Below the pieces are notes generated by a model. The model made no database searches and was not told the DNA's origin. It saw only the letters and a program-made list of their open reading frames with translations. Of a stretch of DNA of 64,000 nt, positions 4,050-35,394 are shown one piece after another. The position numbers and the translations under genes are program-made. Origin of the DNA: a virus. Position 1 is the first letter of the stretch; every line of letters starts with the position of its first letter. Location of the stretch: IMG/VR virus record IMGVR_UViG_3300030085_004590, positions 1-64,000 of that record; one strand, 5' to 3'.

Positions 4050-4817
4050 ATGCCAAGAAAAAGAAGAAAAAAATCAAAAGTGTATTTCGGTACACCTGCT
4101 CAAGAAGCAATTATCGAATACAACAAATGTAAAGACCCAAAGAAGAGGTCTAAAATTTACGAAGAAAGAATTAAATATCCATTCGAAAAACTAGCAGAGA
4201 ATGTTTTAAATACATTTAAGTTTACTTATTTTGATGTACCCAAGAGAGATGTACAAACTGAAGTAGTATCTGTAATGGTAGAAAAAATGCATATGTTTAA
4301 AGAGGGTAAGGGTAGAGCGTTCTCTTACTTTACTATCATTGCAAAGAACCATTTGATTTTAAAAAACAATGGTAACTACAAAAGATGGAAACAAAATTCA
4401 TTACTTTCAGATATGCCACAAACATGGAATCCGGAGAATGATTTTTATAAAGACCAATTAGATAATGAGTATTCTGAATTTAAAAAAATGATGTTAGCAT
4501 ATTGGGATAAAAATTTAAATTCAGTATTTAATAAAAAGAGAGATTTACAAATTGCAGATTCTATCTTAGAATTATTTAGAAGAAGTGAACACATAGAAAA
4601 TTTTAACAAAAAACATTTATACCTTTTGATAAGGGAAATGACGGATTGTAAAACACATTATATTACCAAAGTTGTAAATGTAATGAAACAACATCAGAAA
4701 AAACTTCTAAATGATTTTCTTGAACATGGTGAACCACTAGATAGTAGAACCAGTCCATTTTGGAAACAAGAAGAACCTGAAGATGAGAATCCATATTTAG
4801 ATAATGATTATTTATGA
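4050..4817 (+). CDS. 55: T4 gp55-like late sigma factor
   Basis: A 255-residue protein resembling T4 gp55, the RNA polymerase sigma subunit for late genes. The core pattern is visible: an A-I-x-E-Y start helix, KYPFEKLAENVLNTFKF, a helix ending in F-K-x-G-K-G-R, AFSYFTIIAKNHL, then a basic K-x-x-x-W-K-Q segment. It has a basic N-terminus (PRKRRKK) and an acidic C-terminal tail like those used in T4 for clamp contact. It is longer than T4 gp55 (185 residues) through a central helical insertion. It is the natural candidate to recognise the TATATTTA motif found before the tail genes. It overlaps the next gene by ATGA at 4814-4817. Confidence 0.75.
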   Translation: MPRKRRKKSKVYFGTPAQEAIIEYNKCKDPKKRSKIYEERIKYPFEKLAENVLNTFKFTYFDVPKRDVQTEVVSVMVEKMHMFKEGKGRAFSYFTIIAKNHLILKNNGNYKRWKQNSLLSDMPQTWNPENDFYKDQLDNEYSEFKKMMLAYWDKNLNSVFNKKRDLQIADSILELFRRSEHIENFNKKHLYLLIREMTDCKTHYITKVVNVMKQHQKKLLNDFLEHGEPLDSRTSPFWKQEEPEDENPYLDNDYL

Positions 4818-6526
4818 AATATGTTTTAGGAATAAGTTGTGGTTACCACGATAGTGCAGCTGCACTTATAAAAGATGGAAAAGTTTTAGGTGCATGTGAG
4901 GAAGAAAGATTTACTGGTATAAAACATGATTCTAGTTTTCCCAAAAACACAATTGAGTGGTTAATGGAAACTTACAATGTAACATCTGATAATCTTCATG
5001 CAATATGTTATTACGAAAAACCCAAAGAAAAATTAAATAGAATACAATTAAGTTTAGAAAAGAAACCAAAAAAATGGTATGATATTTTTTACAACACTAA
5101 AAAATCTATTTTAAAAAGAAATCAAAAATCTTACGAAGAGATACAAAATGAAATAAAAAAATTATGTGGTAAAAACACATTGATTCATTATGTAGACCAT
5201 CACCAATCTCATTTAGCATATTCATATTATACTTCACCATTTCATCATTCAGCAATTCTTTCAGTAGATGGTGTTGGTGAATGGGAAACAACTTGTCTAG
5301 CATTAGGAAGTAAAAACAACATAAATAAAATGGGAAGTATAAACTTTCCAAATTCATTGGGAATGTTATATTCTACTTTCACTGCATTCCTTGGATTCAA
5401 ACCAAACGAAGGTGAGTATAAAGTGATGGGATTAGCTCCATATGGAAATTCAAAAAAATATAAAGAAAAATTTGATAAGTTAATTAAAAAAGGAAAAAAT
5501 GGTACTTTTGAAATTGATATGCAATATTTTACTTACGAGTATGACGATAAAAGTATGTTTAACGAAAAACTTGGACAACTATTTGAAATACCAAATAGAT
5601 TACCAGAAGAAGAATTAACTCAAGACCACAAAGATATAGCAGCAGGTTTACAATCGTTATATGAAGAATTATTTTTTGATTTACTCAATGTATTATATGA
5701 ACAATCACAATCAGATAGTTTATGTTTAAGTGGTGGATGTGCATACAATGGAACTGCTAATGGAAAAATATTACAAAGAACTAAATTTAAAAAACTTTAT
5801 ATACCCCCTGCTCCATCTGATGCTGGTTCTGCAATTGGATGTGCTTTAGATTATCATTATAGAACTTCTGAAATCAGAGTTTTAAACAACAACCCATTCT
5901 TAGGACCAGGTTATGGAAAACAAGATATTCTTAATGCAATGGAAAAATATAAAGATAAGATTTGGATTGAAACAAAACTTAAAGAACAAATCGTGGATGT
6001 TATTGCAAAAGAAATTAAAGATGGTAATGTAATTGGTTGGTTTGAAGGTAGAATAGAATTTGGAGCAAGAGCATTGGGTAATCGTTCTATTCTTGCAAAC
6101 CCAAGAGACCCTCAAATGAAATCTCGATTAAACAGAGTTATAAAAAAGAGAGAAGGTTTCAGACCTTTTGCACCAATGGTAAAAGAAGAACTTTCAAAAG
6201 CATATTTTTACTACAATGACACCGTTCCATATATGAACCAAGTTGTTAAAGTAAAAGAAGAACATGGATTCTTCTTACCATCAATTACTCATGTAGATAA
6301 CTCAGCAAGAATACAGACGGTGAATAAAAACCAACATAGATACATTTATGAACTACTTGACAAACTTCATCAAATAAATGGATATCCTATTGTAATTAAT
6401 ACTTCTTTTAACCTCAAAGACCAAACAATGGTACTTACACCAGAAGATGCAATTAGAACATTTTTAGATTGTGAAATGGATATACTTGTACTCCATAATC
6501 ATATTATAAAAAAGAAAATTCTTTAA
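4814..6526 (+). CDS. NodU/CmcH-type carbamoyltransferase
   Basis: A 570-residue protein of full family length. The N-terminal Kae1-like domain shows GISCGYHDSAAALIKDG and CEEERFTGIKHDSSFP; DHHQSHLAYS is the conserved metal/ATP-site histidine cluster. The C-terminal domain shows GWFEGRIEFGARALGNRSIL followed by NPRDP, and REGFRPFAPMV. These enzymes transfer carbamoyl from carbamoyl phosphate through carbamoyl-adenylate to hydroxyl groups of sugars, Nod factors or antibiotics. Here it likely decorates a glycan, although its target is unknown. It is translationally coupled to the sigma factor gene, and the stop at 6524-6526 is followed by a 470-base regulatory stretch. Confidence 0.9.
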   Translation: MKYVLGISCGYHDSAAALIKDGKVLGACEEERFTGIKHDSSFPKNTIEWLMETYNVTSDNLHAICYYEKPKEKLNRIQLSLEKKPKKWYDIFYNTKKSILKRNQKSYEEIQNEIKKLCGKNTLIHYVDHHQSHLAYSYYTSPFHHSAILSVDGVGEWETTCLALGSKNNINKMGSINFPNSLGMLYSTFTAFLGFKPNEGEYKVMGLAPYGNSKKYKEKFDKLIKKGKNGTFEIDMQYFTYEYDDKSMFNEKLGQLFEIPNRLPEEELTQDHKDIAAGLQSLYEELFFDLLNVLYEQSQSDSLCLSGGCAYNGTANGKILQRTKFKKLYIPPAPSDAGSAIGCALDYHYRTSEIRVLNNNPFLGPGYGKQDILNAMEKYKDKIWIETKLKEQIVDVIAKEIKDGNVIGWFEGRIEFGARALGNRSILANPRDPQMKSRLNRVIKKREGFRPFAPMVKEELSKAYFYYNDTVPYMNQVVKVKEEHGFFLPSITHVDNSARIQTVNKNQHRYIYELLDKLHQINGYPIVINTSFNLKDQTMVLTPEDAIRTFLDCEMDILVLHNHIIKKKIL

Positions 6527-6565
6527 CCTTCCCATAATATTTACTTAACAATTTCTTAACATAGG

Positions 6566-6573
6566 TATATTTA
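6566..6573 (+). promoter_or_regulatory. Late-promoter-like TATATTTA element
   Basis: TATATTTA followed by TAC, 17 bases upstream of the ATG at 6590. It matches the repeated element described in the findings. No TTTG lies at the matching upstream spacing. Confidence 0.5.
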
Positions 6574-6589
6574 TACTAAAGGAGGATTT

Positions 6590-6697
6590 ATGATACAAAA
6601 ACACGATATGTATGATGAGGTTCCAAAAATCTTAAGGATTATCGGTCTCCTATTTATAGTATTTGCAATTAGTATAGGTAATATACTCGGAATCTAA
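6590..6697 (+). CDS. 35-residue single-span membrane protein
   Basis: Begins MIQKHDMYDEV and ends in a hydrophobic helix of about 20 residues (I-I-G-L-L-F-I-V-F-A...). A near-perfect AAAGGAGG Shine-Dalgarno lies just upstream, with a late-type promoter element ahead of it. Both support translation. After the TAA a different frame stays open to 6794 (see the next entry), so the product may be longer if a frameshift occurs. Confidence 0.6.
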   Translation: MIQKHDMYDEVPKILRIIGLLFIVFAISIGNILGI

Positions 6698-26617: not shown

Positions 26618-27199
26618 TTGAGTTTACTTATAAACCATTATTCTAAATGGGCATTTGTTCATATACCAAAGACTGGTGGAACTTCAATCACAAAAATCTT
26701 ATTAGAGGATACTAATACTGAAGAAGTATCGGTGCATGATTCTCTTAGAATGTTAGATTGTGATGGTAGTTATTTTATTTTTACAATAGTTAGAAATCCA
26801 TTTACCAGAATTTGTAGTGCATTTGAGGACGAATACCGAAAAGGAAATACAGAACATGATTTTGGTTCATATTTAAATAATATAGACCCAACAAATGTTT
26901 GGACATTCCCCCAAAGTTATTTTATTAACGCGGGACAAACTAAAGATAAAAAAATTTCACACATAGCAAGATTTGAGAACTACGAAGAAGATTGTAATGA
27001 AATTTTAGAAAAATTAAATTATTCAAAAACAATTCCGCATCTTAACCGAAATCCAATTTACGATAGACATCCAAATTTAAATCAAGAAGAATATTACTCA
27101 AAAGTATATTTTACAGAAGATTGGATGATTGATTGGGTTCGAGAAAGGTACAAAGATGATTTTAAGATTTTTAACTATGGGATGGACTTACCAAGGTAG
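26618..27199 (+). CDS. Sulfotransferase-family protein
   Basis: A 193-residue protein of the PAPS-dependent sulfotransferase superfamily (heparan/chondroitin 2-O type). The 5'-phosphosulfate loop FVHIPKTGGTSI is at about residues 13-24 and the 3'-phosphate site VRNPFTRICSAF at 58-69. Near family minimum length. It would transfer sulfate to a glycan hydroxyl. It starts with TTG (26618), with AAGGTAAG upstream; no in-frame ATG precedes the P-loop. Its 3' end overlaps the GIY-YIG gene. Confidence 0.8.
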   Translation: MSLLINHYSKWAFVHIPKTGGTSITKILLEDTNTEEVSVHDSLRMLDCDGSYFIFTIVRNPFTRICSAFEDEYRKGNTEHDFGSYLNNIDPTNVWTFPQSYFINAGQTKDKKISHIARFENYEEDCNEILEKLNYSKTIPHLNRNPIYDRHPNLNQEEYYSKVYFTEDWMIDWVRERYKDDFKIFNYGMDLPR

Positions 27200-27620
27200 A
27201 CCAATAACAGAAATTTCTGATATGCCCGAGGGGACTATCGGATTTATATACAAAATTACAAATCACCAAACAGGTGAATACTATATAGGAAAAAAATCCT
27301 TATATGCAAAAAGAACCTTACCACCATTAAAAGGTTATAAAAGAAAAAGAAAAGTAATTAAAGAATCTAAATGGAAAGAGTATCGTTCTTCTAATACTAA
27401 AGTACAATTGTGGTTTCACGAAAATGAAGCAGCAAAATTAGTAAATGACCAAGATAAAATCAATGATTCATTGGAAACAAAAATACTAAGATTTTGTAGT
27501 ACACCTAAATCATTAACCTATTATGAGGTAGAAGAACTATTTCAACATAGAGTTTTATCTGATGAATTATCCCTTAATGATAATATATTAGGAAAGTTTT
27601 TTAGAAAAGATTTACAATGA
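27177..27620 (+). CDS. GIY-YIG endonuclease-like protein
   Basis: 147 residues with an N-terminal GIY-YIG domain: GFIYKITN (about 22-29) and YYIGKKS (about 35-41), followed by a basic KGYKRKRKVIKESKW segment. Such nucleases are often homing or repair endonucleases in T4-like phages. In-frame ATGs at 27129 and 27156 (the latter with GAGAAAGG upstream) lie inside the preceding gene; I chose 27177 because MGWTYQGRPI looks like the natural start. It is lodged between, and overlaps, two sulfotransferase-like genes. Confidence 0.78.
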   Translation: MGWTYQGRPITEISDMPEGTIGFIYKITNHQTGEYYIGKKSLYAKRTLPPLKGYKRKRKVIKESKWKEYRSSNTKVQLWFHENEAAKLVNDQDKINDSLETKILRFCSTPKSLTYYEVEELFQHRVLSDELSLNDNILGKFFRKDLQ

Positions 27621-28199: not shown

Positions 28200-29144
28200 A
28201 TGCTTTCACAACACGATAAACAACAGGTTATAACAATATTAGATGAGGTGTTGGGCGTTGGTACATCATTAAAAAATGATGAACAAGCTCATTATTGTCC
28301 TTTCTGTCATCACCACAAGAAAAAGTTACAAATTAACTTAAAAACTCAATATTGGCATTGTTGGGTTTGTGATGCGAAAGGTAGAAAGATACAAAGGTTG
28401 TTAAAACGACTTCATGTAGATTCTCGTAAATTAAAGAAAATATACGAAATCTATGGTGATGATTATATTGTTTATAGTAAGGATACCGAAGATGAAAAGG
28501 TAGAGTTAAGGTTACCTAATGAGTTCCAATCATTATTGAAAAAACCAAAGGGTAAATTTAACCCATTATATAAAAAGGCCTTACAATATGCGGAAGAAAG
28601 GGGTATCACTAAAGATGATATTAGACGATATAATATCGGTTATTGTGATTCTGGTCATTATGCCAATAGGATTATTATCCCTTCTTACGATTCTGATAAC
28701 AGACTCAATTACTTCATCGCGAGGTCTGTATTTGCTGAGGAAAAATTTAAATATAAAAATCCGCCAGTTTCGAAAAATGTTATCATCTTCGAAAACCAAA
28801 TAAATTGGAATGAACCAATTACTTTAGTAGAAGGTGTTTTTGATGCACTTGCAGTAAAACGAAATGCAATTCCTATATTGGGTAAATTCGTTCCTAAAAA
28901 ATTAAATGATGCCATATTTAAAAATGAAGTTAAGGGTATTAATATTTTGTTAGATGAAGATGCCCAACAACAAGCGTTACAATACACTATGCAATTTACC
29001 AATCAAGGTATCTCAACAAAAAATATTGTACCATCAGATAAAGATGCATCTGATATGGGATTTTCTGAAGTTAATTCAAAACTTAAAGAATCAACTAAAA
29101 CAGATTTTAGTGATATAATTTCTCAAAAGTTAAAAGGATTATGA
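28200..29144 (+). CDS. DNA primase (zinc-finger plus Toprim)
   Basis: 314 residues. N-terminal zinc ribbon: Cys33-x2-Cys36 and Cys54-x2-Cys57 (HYCPFC ... WHCWVC). The middle region has NPLYKKALQYAEERGITKDDIRRYNIGY, as in DnaG catalytic cores. Toprim motifs: LVEGVFDALAV (about 207) and ILLDEDA (about 250). It synthesises RNA primers for lagging-strand replication, the role of gp61 in T4, but its architecture is closer to a compact DnaG. Its promoter is of the TTG-N20-TATATTTA class. It overlaps the next gene by ATGA at 29141-29144. Confidence 0.85.
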   Translation: MLSQHDKQQVITILDEVLGVGTSLKNDEQAHYCPFCHHHKKKLQINLKTQYWHCWVCDAKGRKIQRLLKRLHVDSRKLKKIYEIYGDDYIVYSKDTEDEKVELRLPNEFQSLLKKPKGKFNPLYKKALQYAEERGITKDDIRRYNIGYCDSGHYANRIIIPSYDSDNRLNYFIARSVFAEEKFKYKNPPVSKNVIIFENQINWNEPITLVEGVFDALAVKRNAIPILGKFVPKKLNDAIFKNEVKGINILLDEDAQQQALQYTMQFTNQGISTKNIVPSDKDASDMGFSEVNSKLKESTKTDFSDIISQKLKGL

Positions 29145-30290: not shown

Positions 30291-33200
30291 ATGATAATTA
30301 ATAAAGTTTATCACTTGGCAGATTTACATATTCGTAATCTCCAAAGACACAAAGAATACAGAGGAGTATTCAAAAAATTCTTAAAACAAGTAAAAGAAGA
30401 TAAAATTGAAGATTCGATGATTTATCTTGCGGGGGATATTGCTCACGCCAAAACAGAGATGTCACCAGAGTTGGTAAAAGAAATCTCATGGTTCTTAACA
30501 GAATGTGCCAAGTTAAGAGAAACTATACTTATAACTGGTAACCATGATTGTAACTTAAACAACTCACACAGATTAGATGTTCTTACACCTATTATCGATA
30601 ATCTTCAAAACCCTCGTATTCACTACTTGCGTGATACTGGCGTGTATAATATACATAATCTTACTTTTGTTGTGTATTCCATCATGGATAACAAAGAGAA
30701 TTGGCCGAAAGGCAAAGATGTAGAGGGTGATAATAAAATCGTTTTATTTCATGGACCAGTAAACAAAGCACAAACTGATATTGGATATACAGTTTCATCA
30801 AACTCATTCAAAGTAGATATGTTTGATGGATTTGATATGGCAATGTTAGGTGATATTCACAAAAGACAAACATTTGGCGAAGGATATGAGTGGGTTGCCT
30901 ACGCAGGTTCAATGATTCAACAGAATCATGGAGAACTACTCGAAAATCATGGTTACTTATTGTGGGATATACCCACTCGAACCTTCACCGAACATCACAT
31001 TCATAATGAATATGGATTCTTAACAGTTGATGTTGTTAATGGAAAAATACCACAATGGGTTTACGATGAAGTTGGTACTAAACTTCCAAAGTATCCAAGA
31101 TTAAGATTGAGGTTTACAAAAACCGAAGCAAGTGATATGAAGAAAAAAATAACTGAATTAAAAAAGTTATTTAAAGTTGCTGAAGTTACTGTAACAAGAA
31201 CCGATACAATAGGACAACTTAAAACAAATCAAAAAGTAAACAAAAACATCGTTGGTGATGTTAAAAACGAAACTTTTCAAAACCAACTGATTAGAGATTA
31301 CTTGGAAAGACAATACCTACTAGAAGATTCAGAGTTAGATAAGATTGCAGAAATCAATTCAGAACTAAACTCACAAATAGATGATTCAGAAATAGCAGAA
31401 AACATTTTATGGACACCAAAGGAGTTTGAGTTTTCTAATATGTTTTCATATGGAGAAAATAACTTAGTTCGTTTTGAAAAGGCACAAGGTATTATGGGAA
31501 TCTTTGCTCCTAATGCAAGTGGTAAATCATCTCTTTTTGATGCACTATCATTTTGTATTTACGATAAAACTTCTCGTACCGCATCTTCAAAGAATATTCT
31601 TAATAATCGTAAAGATAACTTTTATTGTAAGTTTAACTTTGAAATCAATGGAGTGGATTATTACATCGAAAGACGTGCTAAATGGACAAGAAAGGGTACA
31701 AACCTAAAAGTAGATGTAAACTTCTGGAGAGAGGATGCTGGCGTGGTAGAATCACTTAATGGTGAACAAAGAAGAGAAACTAATAAAAACATTGAAAAGT
31801 ATCTTGGTAAGTTTGAAGATTTTGTATTAACTACATTATCACTACAAGGAAACAACGCACTCTTTATTGATAAATCACAATCGGAAAGAAAAGAAATACT
31901 CTCACAATTTATTGGAGTAGATATCTTTGATAAATTATATCAAAAGGCTGCAGATGAGAATCGAGATAATGCAACACTTATCAGAAAATTCAAGTCCGAT
32001 GATTTTACTCAAAAACTAGCTGACATCGACATTGATTTAAAATCTGATAAAAACGAATATAAACTTTTAGAGATGTCCCAAAAGGCATTAAAAGAGGAAG
32101 AAGAACTTTTGAATAAAAAGATTATATCTCTCAATGAAAAAATAGTAAAGTTAAATGCCGATAGTGGAGTATCGATTCAAGAGTTGGAAAAGAGATTGGG
32201 CATCCTCGAAAAGAAAAAAGAAGATATAAAAAAACAAAAGGAATCTATTCAAAATAGAATCACTCATAGAGAAGAATTACAAATTGAATTAGATGAAATA
32301 TTAGATAAGTTTGATGAAGAAGATTTAGAAGAGGGAATTACTAAACTAAAATTATCAAAAAGAAAATTAGAACAAATTGATTTAGAGATTGAAAAAATCA
32401 ATATCAAAAAAGATTCTTTATTTGAAAGGAAAGAACATTTGGATTCACACAAGTATAATGAAGAATGTGATATTTGTATGGAAAACTCAAAGTCAATTTT
32501 AGATACGAAAGTAAAAGTAGAAAATGAAATAAAAGATAATAAAGAAAGTTTACAAGAGTTTGAAAAACAAAAACTAGATTTAAATATTGAAATAGATTCT
32601 CTTAAGGGATATGAAAAGGAATGGAGTAATTTTCAAGAAGCACAAGAAAAGGAAGATAAGATTGATAGAGAAATATCTCAACTTATTAACAAGTTATCAA
32701 CAACAGAAACAGAAGAAATTCGTTTAGATACACAAGTTGCACAACAAGAACAACTTATTAAGGAGTATTACAAGAACGAAAAACAGATTAATAAGAACAA
32801 AGAAATAAGAGATGAGATTGGAGGAGTAAGAGAAAAACAAACTTCAGTTAAGGATGAATTGAAAACAATAAATTCAGATGTTCTTAAATTAAATGGTAAA
32901 ATATCTGCACTTCAAAATCAAAAAGAAACAATAGAAGATAGAATACAAGAAGTTAAAGATTTAGAAGAACAATCTAAGTTATTTGATTTCTATCTAAATG
33001 CATTATCAAAGGATGGTGTATCTTATGAACTGATTGAAAAGGCATTACCAATGATTGAAGGTGAGGTAAACAATATCCTTGCACAAATAGTAGAGTTTGG
33101 AATGCAGTTAGAGATTGATGGTAAAAACATCAATGCATATCTTGTATATGGAGACCAAAGATGGAGTTTGGAAATGTGTAGTGGTATGGAAAGGTTTATT

Positions 33201-33449
33201 AGTGGTTTAGCAATTAGAGTTGCTCTAATCAATGTATGTAACCTACCAAGACCTAATTTCCTTGTAATAGATGAAGGATTCGGTACATTAGATAGTGAAA
33301 ACCTACAATCTCTATTTATGTTGTTTACATACCTAAAAACTCAGTTTGATTTCGTAATGGTAATATCACATATCGATTCAATGAGAGATGTTGTAGATGG
33401 TCTTATAGAGATTAAAAAAGAAAAAGGATTTTCCCAAGTAAAATTTTAA
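30291..33449 (+). CDS. Fused Mre11-Rad50 / SbcD-SbcC (T4 gp47-gp46) recombination nuclease
   Basis: 1052 residues in one unbroken frame. The N-terminal Mre11-type phosphoesterase has ADLHIRN (about 10-16), AGDIAH (about 46), TGNHD (about 83), HGP (about 154) and GDIHKR (about 187). The C-terminal Rad50-type ATPase has Walker A FAPNASGKSS (about 405-414), two long coiled-coil arms, a zinc hook Cys726-D-I-Cys729, signature CSGMERFISG (about 963) and Walker B FLVIDEGFGTLDS (about 989). In T4 these are separate genes 47 and 46 that resect DNA ends for recombination-dependent replication. Fusion would fix the stoichiometry at 1:1. Confidence 0.92.
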   Translation: MIINKVYHLADLHIRNLQRHKEYRGVFKKFLKQVKEDKIEDSMIYLAGDIAHAKTEMSPELVKEISWFLTECAKLRETILITGNHDCNLNNSHRLDVLTPIIDNLQNPRIHYLRDTGVYNIHNLTFVVYSIMDNKENWPKGKDVEGDNKIVLFHGPVNKAQTDIGYTVSSNSFKVDMFDGFDMAMLGDIHKRQTFGEGYEWVAYAGSMIQQNHGELLENHGYLLWDIPTRTFTEHHIHNEYGFLTVDVVNGKIPQWVYDEVGTKLPKYPRLRLRFTKTEASDMKKKITELKKLFKVAEVTVTRTDTIGQLKTNQKVNKNIVGDVKNETFQNQLIRDYLERQYLLEDSELDKIAEINSELNSQIDDSEIAENILWTPKEFEFSNMFSYGENNLVRFEKAQGIMGIFAPNASGKSSLFDALSFCIYDKTSRTASSKNILNNRKDNFYCKFNFEINGVDYYIERRAKWTRKGTNLKVDVNFWREDAGVVESLNGEQRRETNKNIEKYLGKFEDFVLTTLSLQGNNALFIDKSQSERKEILSQFIGVDIFDKLYQKAADENRDNATLIRKFKSDDFTQKLADIDIDLKSDKNEYKLLEMSQKALKEEEELLNKKIISLNEKIVKLNADSGVSIQELEKRLGILEKKKEDIKKQKESIQNRITHREELQIELDEILDKFDEEDLEEGITKLKLSKRKLEQIDLEIEKINIKKDSLFERKEHLDSHKYNEECDICMENSKSILDTKVKVENEIKDNKESLQEFEKQKLDLNIEIDSLKGYEKEWSNFQEAQEKEDKIDREISQLINKLSTTETEEIRLDTQVAQQEQLIKEYYKNEKQINKNKEIRDEIGGVREKQTSVKDELKTINSDVLKLNGKISALQNQKETIEDRIQEVKDLEEQSKLFDFYLNALSKDGVSYELIEKALPMIEGEVNNILAQIVEFGMQLEIDGKNINAYLVYGDQRWSLEMCSGMERFISGLAIRVALINVCNLPRPNFLVIDEGFGTLDSENLQSLFMLFTYLKTQFDFVMVISHIDSMRDVVDGLIEIKKEKGFSQVKF

Positions 33450-33450
33450 T

Positions 33451-34332
33451 ATGAGAATAGTAGTAACAGGTGGTTTAGGATTTATTGGTTCATCATTCGT
33501 GGATTTGTGTGTTAGTAAAGGTATTGAAGTTTTAGTTATTGATAAAATGACATACGCATCAAACGAGGATTGGTTACCAATTGATACTGAATTATTAGTA
33601 AGTGATATATGTGATGTAACTGAAGAAGATTTAGGTGAATATGATTACCTTGTAAACTTTGCAGCAGAATCTCATGTAGATAGAAGTATCAAAGATGGGT
33701 TACCATTTGTAAAATCAAACATACAAGGAACATATAATCTTTTAGAACTTGCAAGAAAAAATCCTAAATTAAAAAAGTTTGTACAAATCAGTACCGATGA
33801 AGTTTATGGTGATTTAGAATTTCTATTTGTTGATGAAGTAGATGAAACTCACGAATTAAAACCATCATCTTATTATTCATCAACCAAAGCATCCGCAGAT
33901 TTAATTGTACAAAGTTGTGGACACACTTATGGTCTACCTTATCTTATAACAAGAACTTGTAACAACTTTGGAATCAGGCAACATAGTGAAAAATTTATTC
34001 CTACGATTATTGATTGTATAAAAAACAAAAAAGAAATACCAATGTATGGAGATGGAAAACAAGTTAGAGAATGGATTTGGGTAGAAGATAATGTTAGACA
34101 GGTATTGAGGTATATGTTAGATACAGATGAAGGAATCCGAAATATCGGTTCTAAGGAACGATTAACTAATAAACATATAATCCAACAAGTAGGAGAAATT
34201 CTTAATATAGAACCTCTTATAACATCAGTAGAGGATAGATTAGGACATGATAGAAGATATGGATTAAAAACAAACTACAAAGAAACACCAATAACTAAAA
34301 CTTTATTTGAATATGTTAGTGAAATTAAATGA
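33451..34332 (+). CDS. rfbB: dTDP-glucose 4,6-dehydratase-like protein
   Basis: 293 residues of the extended short-chain dehydrogenase family. NAD site VTGGLGFIGSSFVD at the N-terminus, FAAESHVDRSI, ISTDEVYGDL with the dehydratase-specific D-E pair, and catalytic YYSSTK. It converts dTDP-glucose to dTDP-4-keto-6-deoxyglucose. Slightly shorter than bacterial RmlB (about 350). It is followed at once by an RmlC-like gene, as in deoxysugar operons. Confidence 0.88.
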   Translation: MRIVVTGGLGFIGSSFVDLCVSKGIEVLVIDKMTYASNEDWLPIDTELLVSDICDVTEEDLGEYDYLVNFAAESHVDRSIKDGLPFVKSNIQGTYNLLELARKNPKLKKFVQISTDEVYGDLEFLFVDEVDETHELKPSSYYSSTKASADLIVQSCGHTYGLPYLITRTCNNFGIRQHSEKFIPTIIDCIKNKKEIPMYGDGKQVREWIWVEDNVRQVLRYMLDTDEGIRNIGSKERLTNKHIIQQVGEILNIEPLITSVEDRLGHDRRYGLKTNYKETPITKTLFEYVSEIK

Positions 34333-34759
34333 ATTCCAAGATGATAGGGGTTCTCTTACTTGTATAGATACAAAAAAATGGGACCAAGTTAATATAAGTA
34401 AAAATTTAAAAGAATTTACTTTTCGAGGAATGCACTATCAAAACAATCCTAGGCAAGAAAAACAAATAATTGTAACCAAAGGAAAGATAATTGATTTTAT
34501 TTATAATTTAAAAACTAAAACATTAGAAGCGTATTATTTAAATGAAGGTGAATGTGTTTGGGTAAATAAATATTCTGCACATGGATTCCTAACATTAGAA
34601 GATGATACAACAGTAACTTATTTAGTAAAAGGAAAATACAACCCTAAAGAAGAAAAATCCATTGTTTGGAAAGATATCCCTCATTTAAAAACAATAATAT
34701 TATCTCAATGCAAAGATAAAGATTTAATAATATCTAAAAAAGATAGTGAGGGAAAGTGA
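34313..34759 (+). CDS. rfbC: RmlC-like dTDP-sugar 3,5-epimerase
   Basis: 148 residues counted from the second in-frame ATG (34313; an ATG at 34307 adds two). Cupin fold signatures are DRGSLTCID, FRGMHYQ, then GKIIDFIYNLK, and NKYSAHGFLTLED with the catalytic-region histidine. It epimerises the 4-keto-6-deoxy sugar made by the preceding enzyme. Shorter than canonical RmlC (about 180), so it may be a 3- or 5-epimerase only. Overlaps the preceding gene by about 20 bases. Confidence 0.82.
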   Translation: MLVKLNEFQDDRGSLTCIDTKKWDQVNISKNLKEFTFRGMHYQNNPRQEKQIIVTKGKIIDFIYNLKTKTLEAYYLNEGECVWVNKYSAHGFLTLEDDTTVTYLVKGKYNPKEEKSIVWKDIPHLKTIILSQCKDKDLIISKKDSEGK

Positions 34760-35394
34760 AAAAAGTTTTCTTAAATAAAAATTTATTAGAAGGTACTTTA
34801 CCTATCTACTACAAAGATGGTCAAAATGGTGGTGGTATAATGTGGGTAGATGAGATGAAAGATTATACTTTTCCAAAAATGAATAAAGTTATGGAAATGT
34901 GTAGTGGACCAGGATTTATGGGCTTTTACTTACATAACAAATATAAAACAGAAAAATTAATTCTTGTAGATATTCACAAACCCCTCGAAGAATCAATCAA
35001 TAAAACTAATAAAGAAAATAATTTAAATGCTGAATTTTATCTAAGTGATGCATTTGAACAATATGATGGTGATAAAGTAGATTTTATAGTTTCAAATCCA
35101 CCTCACATAACTTCAGAAAAAGATTTACAAGTATTTTACGATTCAGATAATAATATTGATTCTGATAAAAAAAGAATATTATTTGATAAAGATTTTGAAT
35201 TTCACAAAAAGTTTCTTGGTAAATTAGATAATTATCTTACAAGTGGTGGTTATTTATTTTTACTTGAAAATTCAAATTCAATACCAGTCAGTAAGATATT
35301 AGAATTAAACTCAAAACTTGTACTTAAGGAAATCATTCATCACAAAAGTTTTCCTAATGTTTACTCCGCACTATTTCAATTACTTAACTCGTAA
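34756..35394 (+). CDS. SAM-dependent methyltransferase with NPPH motif
   Basis: 212 residues. Motif I MEMCSGPGFMG (about 46-56), acidic motif LVDIH, and VSNPPH (about 112-117), the N-P-P-x signature of N-methylating enzymes such as PrmC/HemK and some N6-adenine enzymes. It could methylate protein glutamine, nucleic acid or an amino-sugar. The start is GTG (34756) overlapping the previous stop as GTGA. Its last 15 bases overlap, tail to tail, the minus-strand gene that follows. Confidence 0.78.
   Translation: MKKVFLNKNLLEGTLPIYYKDGQNGGGIMWVDEMKDYTFPKMNKVMEMCSGPGFMGFYLHNKYKTEKLILVDIHKPLEESINKTNKENNLNAEFYLSDAFEQYDGDKVDFIVSNPPHITSEKDLQVFYDSDNNIDSDKKRILFDKDFEFHKKFLGKLDNYLTSGGYLFLLENSNSIPVSKILELNSKLVLKEIIHHKSFPNVYSALFQLLNS

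Follow-up and report, generated by a model that had tools for sequence, protein, structure and literature searches.

Fusion gene and its domains

The window analyzed here is a stretch of 64,000 nucleotides from the IMG/VR virus record IMGVR_UViG_3300030085_004590, a 123-kb fragment from a phage with a contractile tail (myophage type) that includes terminase, portal, capsid, sheath and baseplate genes. It carries a gene of 1052 codons without internal stops (Table 1), whose product includes in the same chain an N-terminal phosphoesterase of the Mre11/SbcD type and a C-terminal ATPase of the Rad50/SbcC type, with a CxxC zinc hook inside the ATPase part. The calcineurin-like phosphoesterase domain of the Mre11/SbcD nuclease was detected by Pfam (Metallophos, PF00149, residues 5-191, E 7e-9, over the curated cut-off) and by a PHROG SbcD-like match obtained when the first 370 residues were searched alone (E 2e-28); this N-terminal part also shows a weak sequence match to Mre11 of Pyrococcus furiosus (1ii7). 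For the C-terminal part we found Pfam AAA_23 (PF13476, residues 382-617, E 3e-10, over the curated cut-off), a match to SbcC_Walker_B (residues 961-1012) that lies under the curated cut-off, a PHROG SbcC-like match (E 4e-58), and sequence matches to Rad50/SbcC chains of the PDB, down to E 3e-20. The Walker A, Q-loop, signature, Walker B, D-loop and H-loop of the bipartite ABC ATPase are all present, as well as the antiparallel coiled coil, given that long helices flank the hook in the structural model.

The product of this gene is a genuine Mre11-Rad50 fusion; the domain, PHROG and PDB matches together with the motifs bear out the first-pass annotation, which had recognized a single polypeptide of this kind with a zinc hook. 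That annotation had also described the fusion as enforcing a 1:1 complex, which is right as a stoichiometry, but the ordinary Mre11-Rad50 complex is 2:2 anyway. Given that a single Metallophos match and a single AAA_23 match were found in the 123-kb record, no second, split copy of Mre11 or Rad50 was found there.

Table 1. Coordinates in the window of the fusion gene, its parts and the neighboring primase gene
Feature	Position	Strand	Remarks
DnaG-type primase	28200..29144	+	PHROG primase, E 2e-49; upstream, conserved neighbor of the fusion
Mre11-Rad50 fusion gene	30291..33449	+	1052 aa, ATG start, stop included
Mre11/SbcD catalytic (calcineurin-like phosphoesterase) domain	30291..30968	+	residues ~1-226; PF00149, PHROG SbcD-like
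Nuclease motif V, GDIH	30849..30860	+	residues 187-190; Asp188 for the usual His
Capping-like region	30966..31268	+	residues ~226-326; from position and secondary structure of the model, boundary approximate
Predicted Rad50-binding helix-loop-helix	31269..31370	+	residues 327-360; model helices, T4 gp47 alignment
Tether	31371..31409	+	residues 361-373; 12-14 residues in 31 aligned sequences, sequence variable
Rad50 N-terminal ATPase lobe	31410..31970	+	residues 374-560; first strand 374-382, PF13476 from 382
Walker A, APNASGKS	31506..31529	+	residues 406-413; translation and alignment
Coiled-coil arms, hook between	31971..32966	+	residues ~561-892; long helices in model
Zinc hook, C726-D-I-C729	32466..32477	+	both Cys invariant in 31 relatives
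Rad50 C-terminal ATPase lobe	32967..33446	+	SGME 964-967, Walker B to DE994-995, D-loop, H1027

Sequence motifs of the nuclease and the ATPase

The invariance of the motifs was judged across 31 aligned relatives. In the nuclease half we identified D11-x-H13, GD49xxH52, GN84H85D, H154 and GD188xH190, and the residues D11, H13, D49, N84, H85, H154 and H190 are invariant. The set of metal-binding and catalytic motifs is complete except for the first His of the textbook GHxH, since motif V reads GDIH; Asp188, which pairs with the His of GHIH in the alignment with P. furiosus Mre11 1ii7, is likewise invariant. As this residue takes the place of a metal-binding His, the nuclease activity or the use of metals could differ, and an Asp at this position is a plausible metal ligand. 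The change is not limited to the fusions, because a split homologue from Vibrio phage PG07 (D12-type protein) carries GDLH.

The motifs of the Rad50 half are A406PNASGKS413, Q519, SGME at 964-967, DE994-995 at the end of Walker B, LD1001 in the D-loop, and H1027; these residues, like the two Cys of the hook, do not vary among the 31 relatives. The ABC signature is thus SGME in place of the textbook SGGE, and this motif also varies in the split phage homologues (SEGE, SNGE, SSGE). The Cys pair of the hook is kept in the T4 and SPO1 homologues too.

Architecture of the junction

In Mre11 proteins, the helix-loop-helix that binds Rad50 is located at the C-terminal end. The AlphaFold2 monomer model of the fusion protein (mean pLDDT 74.5, pTM 0.46, a value that makes the relative placement of the domains unreliable) shows helices at residues 327-341 and 346-360, in a block with a pLDDT of about 72-88, and places the first Rad50 strand at 374-382. 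The C-terminus of T4 gp47 aligns with residues 327-360, in which Tyr337 is invariant, so the real tether comprises residues 361-373. Its length is 12-14 residues throughout the 31 aligned sequences, and its mean identity to the window protein is 43%, as in the coiled coil, compared with 64% for the helix-loop-helix and 74% for both the Rad50 N-terminal lobe and the catalytic nuclease domain, the latter being among the best conserved segments. A constant length combined with a drifting sequence is the behavior of a spacer. Residues 327-360 correspond to the helix-loop-helix with which Mre11 binds the coiled-coil base of Rad50, and we predict that they dock there in this protein too.

The first-pass annotation had taken residues 300-380 as a linker that must span the geometry of the complex. 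Most of this segment is no linker, given that the end of the capping region extends to about residue 326 and is followed by the helix-loop-helix and by a tether of about 13 residues. Furthermore, in the Thermotoga maritima complex the distance from the Mre11 C-terminus to the Rad50 N-terminus is estimated at ~28 Å, which corresponds to 9-12 extended residues (PMC3175470), so the geometric puzzle disappears. The capping region, the helix-loop-helix and the short tether are all present here, with 12-14 residues in the tether against the 9-12 of the published estimate.

Conservation of the fusion in related viruses

A scan of IMG/VR yielded 80 distinct contigs with the fusion, at 53-89% identity, and in all of them the gene is unbroken (66 complete, 14 cut solely by the contig ends). 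Because the source is a metagenome-derived virus record, two genes could in principle have been merged by the assembly or the annotation through a lost stop codon or a frameshift; a fusion created by the assembly, with a missing stop codon, is what the first-pass annotation had named as the finding that would undo its proposal. Against this idea stand the 80 unbroken relatives, the steady length of the tether, and the presence of one full-length homologue in Microcystis phage Mel-JY01, whose sequence is titled as a complete genome; an artefact is thus hardly conceivable, and we rejected it. The join is conserved in dozens of related viruses, and the source is an aquatic bacterial virus.

The gene is under purifying selection: in pairwise comparisons with six relatives dN/dS over the gene is about 0.09-0.13, and dN is well under dS in the nuclease part and in the ATPase part. 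More distant relatives (L085 and L164-L171; about 1200-1250 aa, about 27% identity) likewise have the fusion in one ORF, and a return to two genes was seen in none of the relatives of the fusion. In the plasmid collection only partial matches to the Rad50 head were obtained, and no fusion. One scan of prokaryote genomes gave three matches, all of them on short MAG contigs; the primase adjoins two of them, which suggests that they are probably phage contigs mis-binned with MAGs, or else a hint of the host range. The primase-fusion pair is borne by the contigs L161 and L162, which were assigned to archaeal and bacterial MAGs and are labelled Nitrosopelagicus and Dehalococcoidia.

Two relatives show particular features. 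A 997-aa protein (L069:5001-7994) lacks about 55 residues of the capping region through a deletion that keeps the frame, corresponding approximately to residues 264-318 of the window protein, and retains both active domains and the helix-loop-helix. In a 484-kb uncultured phage (L084, LR756508.1) the fusion gene is interrupted at about 5681-6590, right after GDIHKRQ, by an insert of about 900 bases with a frame that shows zinc-finger-like Cys motifs and a weak match to a TnsA-like endonuclease (E 6e-6). This insert resembles an intron with a homing endonuclease, and an Rfam search of L084 for a known intron family gave no match.

Comparison with known systems

Fusions of Mre11 and Rad50 were described by Yoshida, Claverie and Ogata in 2011 in Mimivirus (R555), Bacillus phage 0305phi8-36, bacterial plasmids and eukaryotes, with the same domain order as here, i.e. 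Mre11 followed by Rad50 (PMC3175470). In that work, homologues of R555 were found to be abundant in the viral size fractions of aquatic samples, phage primases were found on scaffolds with these homologues, aquatic phages were inferred to carry them abundantly next to primase genes, and it was proposed that, with the helix-loop-helix and a short tether, a fused chain can still fit the normal complex (PMC3175470). Our literature search, which covered few subscription journals, found nothing further after 2011 on phage Mre11-Rad50 fusions. A Foldseek search of BFVD with the whole chain gave as best matches giant-virus proteins of fusion length named 'DNA repair exonuclease' (Tupanvirus, Harvfovirus, Yasminevirus, Catovirus; about 16-25% identity), followed by long proteins of Tenacibaculum and Listeria phages; the individual domains matched solved Mre11-Rad50/SbcCD structures. 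In view of the 2011 description and of these giant-virus matches, the architecture is not new, and the 1052-aa protein, a single chain with Mre11 ahead of Rad50, joins the R555 type.

According to its published description, R555 resembles the window protein in the N-to-C order, the helix-loop-helix with a short tether, the Asp in place of His in the GHxH motif of the nuclease, and the long coiled coil (PMC3175470); the comparison with Tupanvirus and the other giant viruses was made by structure. In contrast, R555 has 1351 aa, and the gene of the window is on a tailed-phage contig. The full-length fusion of Mel-JY01 (WWT39521.1, 1066 aa), a phage with a Microcystis host, shows 38.5% identity over the whole length and a primase upstream, and is annotated merely as 'AAA domain containing protein'. 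T4 gp47/gp46 and SPO1 gp21.3/gp21.9 share with the fusion the two domains, the Cys pair of the hook and the C-terminal helix-loop-helix of the nuclease, but they are encoded by two genes, their identity is about 15-20%, motif V is GHFH, and the ABC signature is SEGE or SNGE. The fold and the domain order of the complex are also common to E. coli SbcCD and to the archaeal and eukaryotic Mre11-Rad50 proteins, which are encoded by two genes.

For the Mre11 half and for the Rad50 heads, separate trees were built that covered two fused phage groups and nine split pairs. In both trees a well-supported branch separates the two fused groups from the nine split pairs, with E. coli SbcCD apart from the fused phage clade. 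This topology, with an unfixed root and long branches, is compatible with a single fusion event before these phages diverged.

Probable function and alternative readings

T4 gp46 and gp47 serve recombination-dependent replication and repair. The product of the gene is very probably a nuclease for DNA ends, made by a tailed phage as a fused SbcD-SbcC (gp47-gp46) chain of the R555 type, that would form an M2R2 head and process DNA ends during infection; the conserved single frame, the domains, the fixed tether length and the purifying selection are observed, and the dimer geometry, the activity and the role in infection are inferred. Two fused chains would form the usual head, in which the Mre11 parts dimerise and the Rad50 lobes engage upon ATP binding. 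The helix-loop-helix would dock at the base of the coiled coil, the 13-residue tether would reach the Rad50 N-terminal lobe without strain, and the hook would join the tips of the coiled coils. The ATP-dependent nuclease would then resect or cut DNA ends, most likely to supply recombination-dependent replication and repair with 3' single strands. A gp46/gp47-like function in DNA-end processing is the most likely one; host-DNA degradation may be possible as well, as with gp46/gp47.

Whether host-genome degradation or counter-defence is instead the main use, with the enzyme unchanged, bears on the role only. The annotation of T4 gp46/gp47 includes host-DNA degradation, and no RecA-like recombinase gene was found in the 123-kb record, which is a fragment. 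However, almost every close relative whose flank is long enough has the primase next to the fusion, and this constant pairing suggests a replication module; in SPO1, separate sbcD, sbcC and primase genes are included in one module, and in the distant group of ~1240 aa no primase homologue was detectable beside the fusion. We regard this use as possible but doubtful. It is unlikely that the limit on the tether and the invariant Asp have made a distinct enzyme that a large clade of aquatic phages has retained; if true, this could mean, for example, a cis-locked head with an altered ATP-driven opening, or a changed preference for metal or substrate.

Asp188 could also denote a degenerate nuclease half in a protein whose main role is to tether DNA in an SMC-like manner, since it replaces a metal-ligand His throughout the family. 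The invariance of the seven other residues, the high conservation of the catalytic domain, the plausibility of Asp as a metal ligand and the GDLH of the split PG07 homologue argue against this possibility, which seems quite improbable. Very little weight can be given to a later split of the chain, by proteolysis or an internal start, into two functional proteins: the tether belongs to the most weakly conserved parts, with an identity as low as that of the coiled coil, but the ATG nearest to the junction (M384) would drop the first Rad50 strand, the tether keeps its length, and a reversion to two genes was seen in none of the relatives. The preferred reading of a fused DNA-end nuclease leaves the picture of Mre11-Rad50 biology unchanged. 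It adds complete phage representatives of a fusion for which, in 2011, inference had to rely mostly on short metagenomic reads, and the observation that the tether hardly varies in length within the family. As a single chain of about 120 kDa encoded by one gene, such an Mre11-Rad50 enzyme could be handy in studies of structure and mechanism.

Other genes of the window

At 26618-27620 a sulfotransferase-family gene (PF03567) overlaps a gene for a SegE-type GIY-YIG endonuclease, and in many relatives this overlapping pair precedes the primase and the fusion. Directly downstream of the fusion (33451-35394) there are genes for a sugar-nucleotide epimerase, a dTDP-sugar epimerase-like protein and a small methyltransferase, which adjoin the fusion in some relatives only; this region looks like a variable cargo slot. 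The window also has, at 4814-6526, an auxiliary gene for modification that encodes a Nol-like carbamoyltransferase (PHROG 1601, E 2e-115).
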